From NCBI GenBank assembly GCA_030587405.1, contig JAUQZD010000046.1, positions 1 to 64,000 of the forward strand: a stretch of DNA of 64,000 bases, given 5' to 3'. Source of the stretch: Candidatus Freyrarchaeum guaymasense (GTDB lineage: Archaea; Asgardarchaeota; Jordarchaeia; Jordarchaeales; Freyrarchaeaceae). Numbering within the stretch: the first letter of the stretch is position 1; each line of letters begins with the position of its first letter. Below are positions 2,420 through 46,321 of the stretch, piece after piece. The notes below the pieces were generated by a model that was given only the letters and a program-made list of their open reading frames with translations, did not search any database and was not told where the DNA came from. The position numbers and the translations under genes were made by a program.

Positions 2420-2921
2420 CTCCCACCTGTTTACTTAAAACATCTAGGAGGACCTTTTCAAGGATGGTTACGAGTGCTTCAAGAGACTCTTCAACTTCAG
2501 GGGATAACTTCTCGCCGAGGGCGCTCTTAGGCTGAACACCTACAAATATTACGTAGGCGTTGACCGTCTCCTGTAGGTACCTTGCAACCATGGAGAGGGG
2601 GGTGTGATGGGTTGAAAATGTTACTCCTCCTAAACTTGAGATGTCTGATGTTACCACCACGTCCCCGGGGCTACCGTTGAACTGGGCTGCATCCACGAAG
2701 ACTACGTGGCTGGGTTCAAAACGCCTTAAAACACCTGTAAAGTTTTCAGGCATGGTTCCTGCTTCCACCACCAGAACGTTGGCAAGTTTTAAGCGTTTAA
2801 GCCTTCTGGCAACTTCAAGCCCTACCCGGTCGTCACCCTTGAGCTCGCTTCCCACGCCTACAATAGCCACCTTGACCGCGCCGTCCAACAGCTTCTTGAG
2901 AGCCTTTATCAAGCCTAACAC
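2397..2921 (-). CDS. Hydrogenase maturation protease (HycI/HyaD family)
   Basis: Endopeptidase that trims the C-terminus of the NiFe-hydrogenase large subunit after nickel insertion. The N-terminal GVGSELKGDD signature (residues 22-31), the VFVDAA segment with D77, and the FSTHH segment with H105/H106 match the family fold and its nickel-sensing residues. The 174 residues fit the family. No hydrogenase structural gene is in this window, so the substrate lies elsewhere; the MvhD domain of the HdrA at 16 kb also points to a hydrogenase or another hydrogenase-like donor. It is divergent from the EndA gene, 49 bp away. Confidence 0.85.
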   Translation of the reverse strand: MLGLIKALKKLLDGAVKVAIVGVGSELKGDDRVGLEVARRLKRLKLANVLVVEAGTMPENFTGVLRRFEPSHVVFVDAAQFNGSPGDVVVTSDISSLGGVTFSTHHTPLSMVARYLQETVNAYVIFVGVQPKSALGEKLSPEVEESLEALVTILEKVLLDVLSKQVGDVQVGEG

Positions 2922-2970
2922 CCATAACTCCTTAACAAAGGAAACTTTAAAACCGTTTTTAACAAAGCTG

Positions 2971-3567
2971 ATGACGGTGGCAGAAATGGAGGAGAAAACA
3001 GAGGGAGAAAGTAGGGTTCAAGAGGAACTTAGAGAAGGGGAGGAAGAGGAGAAGGTTACCGGACTCTTAGTTGACGGCGATGTTGTGATCAACGAGAAAG
3101 ACGCCGAGAAAATACATGGGAAAGGCTACGGAGAGTACGAGGAAGACGGGAAACTTCACCTAGCACCCGTAGAAGCACTCCTCCTAGCAGAGAGGGGGAG
3201 ACTCGTGGTGCTGGATAGTGAAGGCAGGGAGCTCACATTTAAAGAATTAGCGAAGACCTTCACCCGGAAAGACCCTAAACTATGGACGCGGTACTTGGTT
3301 TACAGGGACCTGAGAAGCAGAGGGTATGTTGTTAAGCAAGGGTTCGGAGGGGGAATAGACTTCAGAGTTTACCCTAGAGGAAGTAAGGTCGGAGAGGAAG
3401 CTGCGAAAACGTTGATATACATAGTCACCGAGGGAAAACCGATAAACCTTAAGGAGCTAGACAGAGTAACCAAGCTCGCAGTAAGCATGAGGAAGAAGCT
3501 CACAATGGCGCTGATAAACAGGCAGGGTGACGTTGTATACTACAACGTGCTACAGATGACGTTTTAA
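2971..3567 (+). CDS. endA: tRNA-splicing endonuclease subunit, catalytic His missing
   Basis: EndA-fold protein of 198 residues with an acidic N-terminal extension (to about residue 28), the N-terminal mixed domain (LAPVEALLLAERG) and the nuclease domain (YRDLRSRGY, then FRVY). Of the Tyr-His-Lys triad, Y134 and K175/K176 are present. The histidine expected after the tyrosine (family pattern GEHSKYLVHV) is replaced by Glu in GEEAAKTLIY. This suggests a structural subunit of an alpha2-beta2 enzyme, with the catalytic subunit elsewhere. The start at 2971 lies about 25 bp after a TTTAAAA box, so the mRNA may be leaderless; ATG 2986 behind GGTGG is an alternative. Confidence 0.85.
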   Translation: MTVAEMEEKTEGESRVQEELREGEEEEKVTGLLVDGDVVINEKDAEKIHGKGYGEYEEDGKLHLAPVEALLLAERGRLVVLDSEGRELTFKELAKTFTRKDPKLWTRYLVYRDLRSRGYVVKQGFGGGIDFRVYPRGSKVGEEAAKTLIYIVTEGKPINLKELDRVTKLAVSMRKKLTMALINRQGDVVYYNVLQMTF

Positions 3568-3675
3568 GCCGGGTTGAGTAACAGGAAATAGATGTTCTCA
3601 TGATATTTTTATGTTACCTTCCGATTACACGCCTTTATTTCTACCAGTTTTCTTTGTGTAGAAGGGTGAAAGTGG

Positions 3676-3867
3676 ATGAAGGTGGAAGCTGAAGGGTTAG
3701 CTAATGACGATGTTAAGGCATTCCTGAGGGAGCTGCAGAGGGTTTACAGGGAGTACTTCAAGAGGAGAGAGCATAAGACAACCAATGACTTGATCATACT
3801 TAATAACTTAGCTGGCTCGATCAGGAAGCTTAGGTGGATGCTTCAGGAAGGCGGTGTGAAGCGTTAA
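3676..3867 (+). CDS. Small conserved-looking protein, unknown function
   Basis: A 63-residue, highly charged, probably all-helical protein with no motif I recognise. The start ATG is preceded by GGGTGAAAGTGG, a good Shine-Dalgarno site, which supports real translation. It contains no cysteine, no signal peptide and no membrane segment. The charged helix (many Arg, Lys, Glu) is compatible with a nucleic-acid or ribosome-associated role, but that is only a guess. It lies between endA and the convergent hdrB gene. Confidence 0.55.
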   Translation: MKVEAEGLANDDVKAFLRELQRVYREYFKRREHKTTNDLIILNNLAGSIRKLRWMLQEGGVKR

Positions 3868-10717: not shown

Positions 10718-12006
10718 ATGGGGATGACTATTTCGGAGAAGATCTTGGCGTCCCACTCGGGAAAGGAGAGGGTTGAGCCGGGTGAGATGGTTAATGCTAA
10801 GGTTGACGTGGCGATGGTCCACGAGATGCTTGGAAACCCGGCGCCTTGACGGGCTGGGCTAAACTGCGCATAGCAGACATCTACGAGGAACTCGGCGTTG
10901 ATCGCGTCTGGGATCCGAAGAAGATAGTCGCGTTGATAGACCACTGGACGCCTGCTCCAAGCATAGATGCTGCTGTTATCCATGTAACCTGCAGAAGGTT
11001 CGTTGAAAAGTATGGTGTTGAGAACTGGCTTGACATGAGAGAGGGTATATGCCACGTTGTGCTTCCTGAGAAGGGATTTGTTAAACCCGGAGACCTTGTT
11101 GTTGGAAGTGATTCCCACACGACGACCTACGGAGCCGTTGGAGCGTTCGCTACGGGGATAGGCGCCACCGACATGGCTATTGTGCTCGCTACGGGTGAAC
11201 TCTGGTTTAGGGTCCCGTCAACGGTGAAGTTTAACATTACAGGTAAGCTTCAGCCGCTGGTTATGGGCAAGGACATAATCCTTCACATTATAGGTGAGAT
11301 AGGAGTGGATGGGGCGACCTACAAGGCGATGGAGTTCTCGGGCGAGGTTGTGAGGGAGCTCAGCATGGATGGAAGGTTCACTCTCTGCAACATGGCTGTA
11401 GAGGCGGGAGGGAAGGCAGGCATAATAGAGCCGGATGAAAAGACGATAGAGTGGGTTAAGGCAAGGGTCAGCCAGCCGTTCAATCCGGTCATGAACGACA
11501 CTGACGCAGAATACGAGGAGGTCATAGACGTTGATGTTTCAGGGCTGGAGCCACAGGTGGCTAAGCCGCCAAGCCCCCAGAACACAGTGCCCGTATCGGA
11601 AGTGGAGGGGACAAAGATAGACCAAGCCTTCGTCGGGTCATGCACTAACGGTCGGCTTGAAGACCTGAGAGTGGCTGCCAAGATACTTAAAGGCAGGAAG
11701 GTCGCAAGAAACGTAAGAGCTATAATAATACCGGCCTCGAAGGAAACCTACCTAGCGGCGATGAGGGAAGGCCTCATAGAAACGTTCTTGGAAGCAGGGT
11801 GCGTAGTCTGTAATCCGACGTGTGGCCCCTGCATAGGCGCCCACCTAGGACTTCTAGCACCAGGGGAAGTGTGCATATCATCATCCAACCGTAACTTCGT
11901 TGGAAGAATGGGAAGCAAGGACGCATGGATCTATCTTGCATCGCCAGCAACGGTAGCTGCATCAGCAGTAACAGGCGAAATAACAGACCCACGTAGCCTT
12001 GTCTAA
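10718..12006 (+). CDS. leuC: LeuC-like isomerase large subunit, interrupted by a frameshift
   Basis: Large subunit of 3-isopropylmalate dehydratase or homoaconitase. The N-terminus ([10 protein letters not shown] from ATG 10718, after GGAGG) is in one frame and stops at 10847-10849; the rest (LTGWAKL onward) is in the -1 frame. The catalytic domain has [20 protein letters not shown] and NPTCGPC, so all three cluster cysteines are present. The shift lies at AAACCCG (10834-10840): one extra C would read GNPGALTGW without a break, and a -1 slip on this X-XXY-YYZ heptamer would also join the frames. No leuD follows. Confidence 0.85.
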
Positions 12007-14363: not shown

Positions 14364-14606
14364 CTAGAGAGTAATGTTTAGATACTGCATGATTTGAGGC
14401 GCCAGGAGTCCGAGAAGGCCTCCTGATTCAGCTTGCCATGAGAAGGTGAGGTAAGCTATCAGCGCTATGCATGCGCCACAGAGCACAATGTTAACCGCAT
14501 GGTTGTCGTAGCGCAGCTTAGCAAGGCGCAGGTCTCGCTCGTGATCCCATAGGAATGCTCTGAGACTTTCCTGCTTCCGGGGGAGGATGTAAGGCAGCGT
14601 CCTCAC
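14364..14606 (-). CDS. Small protein with one membrane segment
   Basis: An 80-residue protein with a basic, charged N-terminal half (DHERDLRLAKLRYD) and a hydrophobic stretch (about residues 39-54) ending in a small hydrophobic tail. I do not recognise the family. It starts at GTG overlapping the stop of the upstream DUF457-like gene by 4 bp, so it is translationally coupled and may form a complex with that protein. Confidence 0.6.
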   Translation of the reverse strand: MRTLPYILPRKQESLRAFLWDHERDLRLAKLRYDNHAVNIVLCGACIALIAYLTFSWQAESGGLLGLLAPQIMQYLNITL

Positions 14607-15007
14607 CCCGGTCGGATTTGCCCCCCATCAAGGTTTAGGCTGTCCGCTAGCCAGTGTGAGAAGACTGCTGCGGCTGCGATAGCGAAGTATTGAGGGACGA
14701 AGTAGCCTATCAGGAGTGGCAGCCAGATAAGTGTTAGAATACTGTGGAGCAACCCTGACCTGTGCATCACCCTTTCTCTTTTCAGAAGCTGATCTAAGTC
14801 GGGTATGATTCCGAAGAAGCCGCCCGCGGCAAGTGCTGGGACGGCGCCTGATAGGGCAAGCTGAACCTGCCACGTGGAGCTGTACCTTGAAAGATCCATC
14901 AGTGTTTGCAGCTGGGAGAGCAGTGAGCCTTTAAGCTCAGGCGATACGAAGGATATCACGAGAGCTGCTGCGGCTGCTCCCAATATAATGTGCGTGTACT
15001 TCTGCAT
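14603..15007 (-). CDS. DUF457/YdjM-like integral membrane protein
   Basis: A 134-residue membrane protein with about four hydrophobic segments. The conserved pattern of membrane-bound putative metal hydrolases is visible: H near the N-terminus (YTHIILG), PDLDQLL, HRSGLLHS and HWLADSLN. These His and Asp residues would line a metal site within the membrane. The substrate is unknown; some homologues are LexA-regulated. It is shorter than many relatives and couples to the small membrane protein downstream and to an HhH protein whose stop is 1 bp upstream. Confidence 0.72.
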   Translation of the reverse strand: MQKYTHIILGAAAAALVISFVSPELKGSLLSQLQTLMDLSRYSSTWQVQLALSGAVPALAAGGFFGIIPDLDQLLKRERVMHRSGLLHSILTLIWLPLLIGYFVPQYFAIAAAAVFSHWLADSLNLDGGQIRPG

Positions 15008-34672: not shown

Positions 34673-34687
34673 GTGAAGTTTCTGAGG

Positions 34688-35242
34688 ATGTTGAAAGAAG
34701 CTGAGGGATGCGGGTTGGCTACACAAACCTATCTTTTCAAGGTGGTAATGGTTGGGGATCCTGCAGTCGGTAAAACGAGCTTGGTTGTAAGGTATGTGCA
34801 CGGTTTCTTTCAACATGATTACATAGCTACGATAGGAACACAGATAATGAGTAAGGAAGTTTACGTAAGGGATAACATTGTTAAACTTTCAATATGGGAT
34901 ATAGGGGGACAGGAGAAGTTTGACACGCTTGCCCCAGCATATTATAAGGGTGCATCCGGAGCGCTGGCCATCTTTGACGTAACACGTAAGGAGACCCTTG
35001 AAAATATTCCTAAGTGGATTTCACGGTTGCACCGATATGCAAACCCGAACGTTCTCACGATCCTAGTTGGAAATAAAGTCGATCTTGTTGATGAGAGGCA
35101 GGTTAGCCCTGATGAGGCAACCGGAATAGCAGATAAGTATGGGCTACCCTACGTGGAAACTTCTGCGAAAAGCGGAAAGAACGTTATTAAAGTCTTTGAG
35201 GTGATGGCTGAGAGGCTGCTAGCCAAAAAAGTCGGAGAATAA
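34688..35242 (+). CDS. Rab-like small GTPase 1
   Basis: Ras-superfamily GTPase of about 184 residues. G1 GDPAVGKTS, G3 WDIGGQEKF, G4 NKVD and G5 ETSAKSG are all present, with switch-I threonine candidates near IATIGTQ, so GTP binding and Gln-dependent hydrolysis are expected. No C-terminal prenylation cysteine exists, so it is soluble or uses protein partners. ATG 34688 gives a 16-residue N-terminal extension before the core; GTG 34673 is an alternative. A second Rab-like GTPase lies 0.7 kb away on the other strand, and roadblock proteins occur at 5.4 and 38.3 kb. Confidence 0.93.
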   Translation: MLKEAEGCGLATQTYLFKVVMVGDPAVGKTSLVVRYVHGFFQHDYIATIGTQIMSKEVYVRDNIVKLSIWDIGGQEKFDTLAPAYYKGASGALAIFDVTRKETLENIPKWISRLHRYANPNVLTILVGNKVDLVDERQVSPDEATGIADKYGLPYVETSAKSGKNVIKVFEVMAERLLAKKVGE

Positions 35243-35915: not shown

Positions 35916-36467
35916 CTACCTTAAGTATAAACCTTTGTTCTGGGTTTTCAGGGGAACCTCCTCTATCATAAGGGAAGCTAACGTTTTAAAAACATCTTCA
36001 ACCATGTAGTTCTCCTTGGCTGACGATTCAAAGTATGGTACTCCTAACTTCTCAGCTAGGCGTGATCCATCTTCGTAACGAACTTTCCTCTGGGACACCA
36101 AATCTATTTTGTTCCCAACTAGGATTACGGGTATGTTTCCACAGTGGTATCTAACTTGGTTTACCCAGCTCATCACATTTTTGAACGTTTTAATGTCGGT
36201 TACGTCGAAAACCACTAGGGCGCCTCGCCCGCCTTTAAAGTAATTTGGCAGTAGAGGCCTAAACTTCTCCTGGCCGCCAGTATCCCATATTGTAAGCTTA
36301 ATCAGGCAGTCGTTTATGTCCACTATTTTAGAGTAGAAATTTACTCCTAGGGTTGGAATATAATTTTCCCTAAATGATCCGGTGGCAAACCTTATTGTTA
36401 GGCTTGTTTTACCTACTCCACCATCCCCAACGACCAGAACTTTAAAATTATATATTGACTTACTCAA
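35916..36467 (-). CDS. Rab-like small GTPase 2
   Basis: 183-residue Ras-superfamily GTPase. G1 GDGGVGKTS, switch I IPTLGVNFYSK, G3 WDTGGQEKF, G4 NKID and G5 ESSAKE are intact, and the effector region is closer to eukaryotic Rab/Ran than to Arf. There is no lipidation cysteine. It is paralogous to GTPase 1 but more Rab-like in the P-loop. The neighbours are SSB downstream and, 0.5 kb upstream on the same strand, the V4R protein, whose fold is shared with Bet3 of the TRAPP Rab exchange factor. Confidence 0.95.
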   Translation of the reverse strand: MSKSIYNFKVLVVGDGGVGKTSLTIRFATGSFRENYIPTLGVNFYSKIVDINDCLIKLTIWDTGGQEKFRPLLPNYFKGGRGALVVFDVTDIKTFKNVMSWVNQVRYHCGNIPVILVGNKIDLVSQRKVRYEDGSRLAEKLGVPYFESSAKENYMVEDVFKTLASLMIEEVPLKTQNKGLYLR

Positions 36468-44712: not shown

Positions 44713-46321
44713 TCAGGAGGCGTCGACCGTTTTCACGGTTTCCTCGCTGGCGACTCCTCTCCGCCTCCTCCGCCATTCCTCAACTGGAATGCTGAACTGC
44801 TTCTCAACCATTGGCCGGTGGATCGTGTTGTAGGTGCAGAATGGGATTATCCGCCCATCAGGTGTGCCGTAATGGATAACGCAGCGCTCAACTCTGGCAA
44901 GGTCGAGGTTGTATGGATCCTGAAAGTGCATCATCCCGATCAAGATTACGCTACGCATGAAGTCTCCTAGCGCGTTGTAGTTCCCTGAGGTAAGGACGCG
45001 CCTGAAGAGGCTGAACATGAGACCCTTCTTCTTGAAGAAGCGGAGCATTCCCATGGCAACCCTCAATCTGCCTTTAAGCTTCGAGAACCACCCGCCCTGA
45101 AACTCCTCAGCACACTTCTCGAAGGTCTCCATGATCCTGTCGACGTCGACGTAATGGGTGATCGGGTAAAACTCGCCGTCACCCTCCACCCGGATGAAAG
45201 TTGCCATGCCGCAGTGCACGTGGTTGCCGAACTCCACCATGGGTCTGCCGAAGTAGGCTGAGAGAGCCCTAGACAATGGGGTCGGGGTCGTACAGGGGTA
45301 GAAGTCGGACGTCTTGATGCGCCCTCCAGTCTGCTCCTCGCAAGCCTTGATGACTTCTGGGATCGTTATCCGCATCTCCATCCTTTTTGATTCATCGATC
45401 CTCCCTGTGATGCTTACTGGCTGGAAGATTATACCCCGCACCACGTCATAGTTCTCAACGGCAAAACGTATGATATCGCCTATCTGATCATCGTTAACGC
45501 CCCTAACAACTGTTGGAACCAGTACTATGGAGTGGAGGCCCGCCTTACGGCAGTTCTCGATGGCCTTAAGCTTTAACGGGAGAAGGTTGCGTCCTCTAGC
45601 CTCAAGGTACGGCTCAGGCGTCACACCGTCAAATTGCATGTACACTGTGCTGAGGCCAGCCTCCACCAGCTCACGGCAGTAATCAACGCTCTCTGCAAGC
45701 TTCAAAGCATTAGAGGCGATCTCAACGTGGGCGAACCCTACCTCCCTAGCCATCCTTATAAGCTCAGGGAGGTCCTCCCTGACGGTAGGTTCTCCACCAG
45801 CAAACTGAACAGCAGGGGCTGGGACGGGAACATTACGTCTGAAGTTTTCAAGCATGAACCTGATCTGCTCGGCACTGGGCTCATAGACATAACCAGAAAC
45901 CGCTGCGTTAGCAAAACATATTACCCCACGCGGAACCCGGATGGAACTAAGCGTCCTCCGGGCAACATCGCGTGTTTGGGCATCGCAAATTACACCGGTT
46001 CGTTACGTCGATGAGCGCCAGTGCAGTGTAGGTTTTATGGTTTGTACATAGCCCACAGTCAAAGGGGCATCCTTGACGGGCTTCCGTTCGGGGGTTTTCT
46101 ATTTTAACCCTGTTATAATTCCACTTTGTAACTTTCCTGTAGAGTTCCGCATCTCCCCAGTACACGTCCGTCACCTGTCCGTGTTCAGGGCAGGTTTTCG
46201 TTATCATTACCTTCCCGTCTTCCTCGTACACTGTCGCATCTATTACTTTCATACACTCGGGGCATATGCTCTTGGTCTGAAAGGGGAGCTCAGGGAATTG
46301 CTCGTGCACAAGCCTTTGCAC
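44713..46321 (-). CDS. tes: Tetraether lipid synthase-like radical SAM enzyme, split by an intron
   Basis: Radical SAM enzyme of the Tes/GDGT-synthase family, which joins archaeol chains into tetraether lipids. Exon 1 (46321-about 45978) has CPECMK, KTCPEHG, GCPFDCGLC and stops in the middle of the SAM motif at CNLRCP. Exon 2 (about 45922-44713) begins ICFANAA and has FAGGEPTVRED and the later SPASM-like cysteines. A 55-nt intron (45975-45921) separates them; removal gives CNLRCPIC, the required CxxxCxxC, and a 517-residue protein of normal length. GTG 46321 follows GGTGGTGG. Confidence 0.88.
45921..45975 (-). other. Archaeal protein-coding (BHB) intron in tes
   Basis: 55 nt, not a multiple of three, containing an in-frame TAG. 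BHB pairing: outer helix AU/AU (45983-45982 with 45919-45918), central helix GCCC (45981-45978) with GGGU (45926-45923), 3-nt bulges AAA (45977-45975) and AAU (45922-45920), inner helix CACGCG (45974-45969) with CGCGTG (45932-45927), then CCCGGA/TCCGGG inside. Cutting between bulge bases 2 and 3 gives exons joined as TGC CCA ATA TGT. Confidence 0.88.

Follow-up and report, generated by a model that had tools for sequence, protein, structure and literature searches.

The closest described counterparts of the insert analysed here are the cbf5 pre-mRNA introns of Crenarchaeota (Desulfurococcales and Sulfolobales), which measure 16-44 bp, are cleaved after the second base of each bulge, and in most published cases have an unconventional BHB (PMC2738675). 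The same paper proposes a link of hetero-oligomeric EndA with relaxed motifs and mRNA introns, and it foresees the difficulty that such introns pose for gene calling. PMC7714728 gives cbf5 as the only known case. In Freyarchaeia and Atabeyarchaeia, introns have been reported in 92-95% of tRNA genes, often several per gene and at non-canonical sites (PMC11291895); the same study includes metatranscriptomes of its wetland site.

The locus described here, tes, lies in a 64,000-nt stretch of DNA analysed as a whole (the window) and carries a 55-nt insert that is, with high probability, an archaeal BHB mRNA intron excised by EndA, its exons being joined by RtcB, and one member of a population of such introns in Asgard archaea. 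Like the crenarchaeal cbf5 intron, it would be a short BHB element with the same cleavage point in its bulges, located in a protein gene; in contrast to cbf5, many unrelated genes are interrupted here, in Asgard archaea, and the tes intron is longer than the published cbf5 range (PMC2738675). It shares with the HVO_1309 BHB substrate of Haloferax the action of EndA on an mRNA, predicted in the case of tes, but the Haloferax BHB is located in a 5' untranslated region, whereas the tes insert is inside the reading frame (PMC7714728). The tRNA introns mentioned above are likewise of the BHB type, and the tRNAs of the relative G009 are also predicted to be intron-rich, but the introns described here interrupt protein genes, a class that goes unmentioned in the accessible text of PMC11291895. 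Introns of both classes presumably use the same enzymes.

The tes gene and its insert

The gene at 46321..44713 (minus strand) is, judged by its sequence, a tetraether synthase (Tes), since its spliced product scores over the equivalog cut-off of NCBIfam NF045702, the tetraether lipid synthase family (678.6 bits; cut-off 450). It is organized as follows:

45976..46321, minus strand: tes exon 1 (346 nt; GTG start; 115 codons plus 1 nt)
45921..45975, minus strand: putative tes intron (55 nt; in-frame TAG at 45949..45947; missing in 79/79 homologues covering the site)
44713..45920, minus strand: tes exon 2 (1208 nt; from the last 2 nt of the Ile116 codon to the stop)

The first-pass annotation had claimed that an insert with an in-frame TAG, and of a length that is not a multiple of three, splits the radical SAM motif of Tes, and that its excision restores CNLRCP-ICFANAA and a protein of 517 residues. 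Both statements agree exactly with the sequence. Joining the exons without the insert yields a 517-aa Tes that reads ...VTNRCNLRCP-ICFANAA..., the predicted spliced RNA having ...TGCCCAA joined to TATGTTTT and the predicted peptide spanning the junction being CNLRCPICFANAA. The radical-SAM CxxxCxxC motif (C110-C114-C117) is complete after splicing only, as C110 and C114 are encoded by exon 1 and C117 by exon 2. Within exon 1, residues 15-115 match NF045702, and the spliced protein aligns with the solved macrocyclic archaeol/GDGT synthase (PDB 7tol) at 597.6 bits, ungapped at the junction. Apart from the insert, tes is an open and conserved coding sequence of 1554 nt.

All the parts of the BHB that had been proposed by hand, i.e., a GCCC/GGGU centre, AAA and AAU bulges, and the helices CACGCG/CGCGTG and CCCGGA/TCCGGG, were found again in silico:

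45978..45981, minus strand: central helix, 5' strand GCCC (exon 1)
45975..45977, minus strand: 5' bulge AA↓A, with the 5' splice site past the second A
45969..45974, minus strand: inner helix, 5' strand CACGCG
45927..45932, minus strand: inner helix, 3' strand CGCGTG
45923..45926, minus strand: central helix, 3' strand GGGT (intron)
45920..45922, minus strand: 3' bulge AA↓T, with the 3' splice site past the second A

The order of these elements is 5'-GCCC AA↓A CACGCG ... CGCGUG GGGU AA↓U-3', in which the exon bases GCCC pair with the intron bases GGGU in a 4-bp centre, the inner helix has 6 bp, and a second hairpin arm (CCCGGA/UCCGGG) closes the insert. Cuts between bases 2 and 3 of the bulges coincide with the exon borders and give CCA-ATA-TGT. 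Both the hairpin and the central helix are part of the predicted RNA fold of the tes strand (-34.2 kcal/mol, z -2.24), whose stability was matched by 6 of 200 shuffles, and when the insert was shuffled between fixed exons its BHB score was reached by 2 of 5000 shuffles. The outer helix formed between the exons is weak and falls short of the strict hBHBh' definition; as its run is of 2 bp, tes was filed as a relaxed BHB.

The first-pass annotation had also proposed to compare Tes homologues of relatives. The comparison made here used Tes loci of named genomes, of which the best 80 of 100 were retained. The 79 that cover the junction are uninterrupted at this site, with exact exon joining and no conserved in-frame insertion, while the match of the remaining locus (L080) begins downstream of the junction. 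The nearest loci, L001 and L002, belong to Candidatus Jordarchaeum MAGs and share 84% and 81% protein identity with the window, which makes a Jordarchaeia-like Asgard archaeon its probable source; nucleotide similarity to them ends at 45978 and restarts at 45921. Two protein clusters correspond to the separate fragments of the gene: P0121 is the exon-1 piece followed by the intron-coded tail NTRCCPEDA (7 sequences, 2 contigs, the longest of 9,683 bases), and P0003 is an exon-2-only protein with 3 differences from the window in 380 aligned residues (7 sequences, 2 contigs, the longest of 52,812 bases). Since these contigs are shorter than the window, they probably come from other assemblies, and they appear to be strain variants, known from protein records alone, with the same split of tes. 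The presence of the same two fragments in other database clusters makes a single assembly error an unlikely source of the insert. Among the sequences compared, the tes intron occurs in this lineage only, and thus it has no covariation of its own. A BLAST search with it against G009, the window, the G006 sequence and the 80-locus set returned no long match elsewhere, so no donor was found in them.

A group I or group II intron core was not found in the insert, which measures 55 nt in a window without any Rfam match at gathering scores. An intein was ruled out as well, because the insert is 55 nt with a stop codon and there is no in-frame protein insert. There is a known intein in Tes (NCBIfam NF045703), which profile coordinates place between Ile116 and Cys117, 2 nt from the tes intron; two unrelated splicing elements would then share one catalytic site of this enzyme. 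Unlike the tes insert, with its 55 nt and its stop, that intein is translated and removes itself from the protein.

Interrupted genes in the window and in a relative

The relatives compared were nine genomes, eight of one class (G001, G002 and G004-G009) plus G003 (Sigynarchaeota). The comparison of the window with the whole genome of G009 (2.08 Mb) exposed two more broken genes in the window. The first is leuC-like (large subunit of IPMI/homoaconitase):

10718..10835, plus strand: leuC-like exon 1
10836..10864, plus strand: leuC-like intron (29 nt; kept in 9/9 relatives, with a covarying BHB)
10865..12006, plus strand: leuC-like exon 2

All nine relatives have leuC broken at the identical place, and the inserts, including that of the window, are 29-40 nt long, have variable loops and contain a BHB in each case. 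The compensatory changes observed in silico are illustrated by the central helix, which is UUGG/CUAA in the window, UCGG/CCGA in G009 and G002, and UCGG/CCGG or UCGG/CUGG in the others. Standard pairs occupy 93 of 100 cells (10 pairs in 10 sequences), a value reached by none of 2000 shuffles of the 3' side. RNAalifold, run without a given structure, returned nearly the same fold, with a 3' bulge of 5 nt instead of 3, and 6 pairs with changes on both sides. A leuC match was obtained in 126 of the 148 genomes of the phylum sampled. Among the matches listed, no genomes other than the eight of the class had the site interrupted by a break or a stop; a few other matches start late.

The second gene encodes a YdjM-like membrane protein:

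14635..15007, minus strand: YdjM-like exon 1
14618..14634, minus strand: YdjM-like intron (17 nt)
14364..14617, minus strand: YdjM-like exon 2

Excision of the 17 nt restores SLNPTGVRTL, and the Pfam YdjM match spans the junction. The insert is missing from G009 in the alignment, and G001, G002 and G008 have open frames of 208-245 aa at the site.

Split genes of G009 were sought by homology, with the window, 400 kb of G006 and the 80 loci as references; of the five breaks found, four are BHB introns. The fifth (C2 418753), in an HdrA-like gene, was rejected as an intron, being two adjacent genes. In addition, the genome was scanned ab initio for a BHB with A-rich bulges, a split frame and coding-like codon usage, with T-rich bulges and a mirrored motif as controls. 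The stricter scan gave 12 hits at a score of at least 28, against 4 (T-rich) and 1 (mirrored); the relaxed scan gave 17 hits against 7 and 6 at a score of at least 27, and 10 against 3 and 0 at a score of at least 31. As the control scans also give hits, the BHB motif alone is not diagnostic without homology. In fact, the first scan of the window produced a mirrored control hit of 32 against 31 for tes; motif scanning alone was thus rejected as a proof, and the intron claims rest on homology, conservation or covariation.

We have called an intron of G009 supported when a family model runs across its junction or when there is a homologue. Families or homologues support 12 of the 17 relaxed-scan hits of score at least 27. 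The other five are C1 868242, C3 382775 and C1 403870, which are unassigned, C1 1035712-1035681 (32 nt), with a good BHB and no family match, and C2 187445-187402, which by eye resembles a PdxS/PdxT gene boundary. C3 103304-103277 is likewise a candidate only. The 15 supported introns interrupt genes for LeuC, LeuD, GatE, an FAD-binding oxidoreductase, Kae1/TsaD, an HdrC-like Fer4 protein, protein-isoaspartate methyltransferase, PpsA, EF-2, Cbf5, SelD, a NuoD-like hydrogenase subunit, HypD, DnaG and a radical SAM protein. The Pfam match of the radical SAM protein begins at the junction, and this protein is supported by a homologue that aligns on either side of it; the match of the Fer4 protein takes in just five residues of exon 1; the LeuC model match was run on the spliced product of the window, and LeuC of G009 is supported by the shared intron. 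Spliced products and models match over equal spans (residues/positions) in aEF-2 (131/131), Kae1 (131/131), Cbf5 (129/129) and DnaG (91/91).

These 15 introns are 14-59 nt long (median 29) and fall in all three codon phases. Together with the three of the window and two candidates they make the 20 analysed introns, leuC being counted twice; AA↓A is the 5' bulge of 7 introns, and 12 have AA↓A or AA↓U as their 3' bulge. The scan of 400 kb of G006 recovered introns in the genes for SelD and isoaspartate methyltransferase where G009 also has them, and another, assigned by eye, in an AAA-ATPase gene. Since the mirrored control scores as high or higher there (best mirrored 29, best real 26), the support for the G006 introns is the shared site and the restored protein.

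cbf5, Kae1, EF-2 and rtcB in the relatives

The cbf5 intron of G009 splits the codon of the catalytic Asp (GHAGTL[D]PKVTG), exactly where the crenarchaeal cbf5 gene is reported to be interrupted (PMC2738675), and thereby serves as a positive control. It is present in 9/9 relatives with 29-35 nt, and the fold that RNAalifold returned without a given structure has outer and central helices of 4 bp each and one 3-nt bulge per strand. Here too the changes are compensatory in silico, with 88 of 90 cells pairing, a value reached by 1 of 2000 shuffles. cbf5 was matched in 141 of the 148 genomes sampled, most of the matches listed being contiguous and free of stops. Outside the class, BHB inserts occur at the same Asp codon in L358 (G043; 31 nt) and L359 (G030; 35 nt). 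The cbf5 genes of G023 and G050 show extra length with stops.

Kae1 carries an insert of 13-30 nt in all nine relatives, with one central pair broken in G007 and with 44 of 45 cells pairing, a level that 10 of 2000 shuffles attain. For G008, the search matched the downstream half of Kae1 alone and the upstream peptide was not recovered, but the same element is visible in the DNA.

EF-2 is interrupted in G001, G003, G008 and G009 and uninterrupted in G002, G004, G005 and G006; for G007, the search gave weak matches only and the gene was not found. G002, from which the intron is cleanly missing, shares 95% identity with the G009 protein over the junction window. The intron of G003 lies 4 nt away from the others, as placed by BHB score, and the EF-2 of G025 (L360) is interrupted at a separate motif (RG↓ITI) by a BHB insert of 31 nt. 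This offset and this second site suggest two or three separate gains of EF-2 introns. The EF-2 introns alone showed no covariation in the three near-identical rows counted, G003 having been left out because of its displaced intron. The EF-2 matches of G032, G050 and G055 do not begin before residue 34-35, and these late starts, together with the insert of G025, raise the possibility that there may be a second intron-rich Asgard lineage.

The gene of the ligase itself, rtcB, is split between LPD and AHQGYGFPIGG by an insert of 30 nt that includes an in-frame stop in L354 (G003), L355 (G006), L356 (G004) and L357 (G005). G007 has a partial copy, also with a stop, and the frame is uninterrupted in G001, G008 and G009. 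The insert forms a CCCG/CGGG BHB in G004 and G005; for G003 and G006, no BHB of the insert was among the two best scored per strand. A self-dependent loop, in which the RtcB ligase would be needed to restore its own message, is possible.

Many introns are located at what we take to be active-site motifs: CxxxCxxC of Tes, CGICSxxH of the hydrogenase, the catalytic Asp of Cbf5, DAHQGYG of RtcB and CGTHEQ of HypD. Their placement resembles that of inteins. Such a distribution invites two speculations, either that the introns were gained through a homing-like or reverse-splicing route or that they survive only where imprecise loss is lethal.

Splicing machinery, alternative explanations and significance

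Genes for the splicing machinery were found in silico in the window and in the relatives. The window contains one of them:

3058..3567, plus strand: EndA subunit (PF02778 + PF01974; the listed ORF starts at 2641)

This subunit is without the His of what we take to be the catalytic triad, and thus it is probably a structural subunit. G009 encodes the same subunit plus a second one with Tyr, His and Lys, suggesting a heteromeric EndA; the catalytic subunit was observed in relatives, the window itself showing the other one. RtcB was found in 8 of the 9 relatives, G002 having no match, and ARAGORN predicted introns in 10 of 13 tRNAs of G009, one of them doubtful (1333 nt).

According to the mechanism that we propose, the pre-mRNA would fold so that GCCC of the exon pairs with GGGU of the intron and a three-base bulge is left on each strand, a heteromeric EndA would cut each bulge between bases two and three (AA↓A and AA↓U), and RtcB would ligate the exons, restoring the CxxxCxxC of Tes. 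The tes intron would be one of a population of short introns (13 to 59 nt) in protein genes of Jordarchaeia and other Asgard archaea. We infer that this excision and ligation take place in the cell, and splicing of tes may also play a regulatory role.

Ribosomes can hop over a stretch of mRNA, as in gene 60 of phage T4 and the byps of yeast mitochondria, and such translational bypassing would leave the RNA unspliced. The inserts are indeed short hairpins, most of them with an in-frame stop, and the take-off and landing codons are the same in 3 of the 20 introns (LeuD, EF-2 and NuoD-like). However, these codons are unlike in the other 17, tes included (counting the two candidates, and leuC twice), and neither a 4-bp helix with 3-nt bulges on both strands nor splits in all three codon phases would be expected from bypassing. 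Moreover, one insert coincides in position with the crenarchaeal cbf5 intron, for which cDNA evidence has been published (PMC2738675). We therefore regard bypassing as very improbable.

A pseudogene or an assembly artefact is slightly less probable still. The tes frame is broken by a stop, the insert is known from a single lineage, and the source is probably a metagenome contig, but the rest of the gene is open and conserved, the insert is at a BHB site, its removal restores the protein exactly, and strain variants appear to have the same two fragments. In addition, EF-2, Kae1, DnaG and Cbf5 of a relative carry the same type of insert, and not all of them can be dead. Just as improbable is that the two halves work as separate proteins or that the TAG is read as an amino acid, since, in spite of the UGA reported as selenocysteine in Jordarchaeia, UAG recoding among Asgardarchaeota is reported in Sifarchaeia only (PMC9723677), 55 nt is not a multiple of 3 and read-through cannot join the frames, and separate halves would leave the three cluster cysteines in different polypeptides.

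Strong computational evidence, to which the comparison with relatives adds independent and strong weight, thus favours the reading of the tes insert as a BHB mRNA intron, and as the tip of what would be a much larger phenomenon. We consider it likely that Jordarchaeia, and probably further Asgard lineages, carry out genome-wide mRNA splicing by means of their tRNA-splicing enzymes. Each genome would contain some 15 or more very short BHB introns, many of which lie at active-site motifs, in genes including EF-2, Kae1, DnaG, GatE, Cbf5 and, in some species, rtcB. Life in these archaea would then require mRNA splicing, and the expression of RtcB would rely on RtcB itself. mRNA splicing appears to be required by one member of the class to make its elongation factor, a tRNA-modification enzyme and its primase, and by a relative to make its lipid synthase. 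If this is true, archaeal pre-mRNA splicing is a general process in the phylum thought to be closest to eukaryotes, by a mechanism unrelated to the spliceosome. In practical terms, key proteins of these archaea, including the phylogenetic markers EF-2 and Kae1, can come out of gene calling broken or truncated. The origin, gain and loss of the introns are directly testable, e.g., with EF-2 in G009 and G002.

The first-pass annotation had considered protein-coding BHB introns rare and one in a lipid gene new. This holds for the literature searched, but not for these genomes, in which tes is one of many. Among the titles and opening abstract lines listed for the open literature, no BHB introns inside protein-coding frames other than that of cbf5 were found. 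RNA-seq papers have reportedly proposed a few other archaeal mRNA candidates. The kind of element is thus known from cbf5, and the genes and the genome-wide scale are new with respect to the literature searched.

Some further features were noticed. Two genes named by eye as Ras-like small GTPases, an Asgard hallmark, lie about 0.7 kb apart in the window (34673-35242, plus strand; 35916-36467, minus strand). G009 has a repeated unit like CAAAAACAGTCCCCCACAAATGGGGATTGAA at C2 ~2467-3768 and C3 ~468708, which suggests CRISPR arrays. Finally, two HdrA-like genes of G009 (C1 439431-441191 and 746819-748687) each consist of two in-frame ORFs parted by a stop, where a selenocysteine codon is likely, as UGA is reported to encode selenocysteine in Jordarchaeia (PMC9723677).
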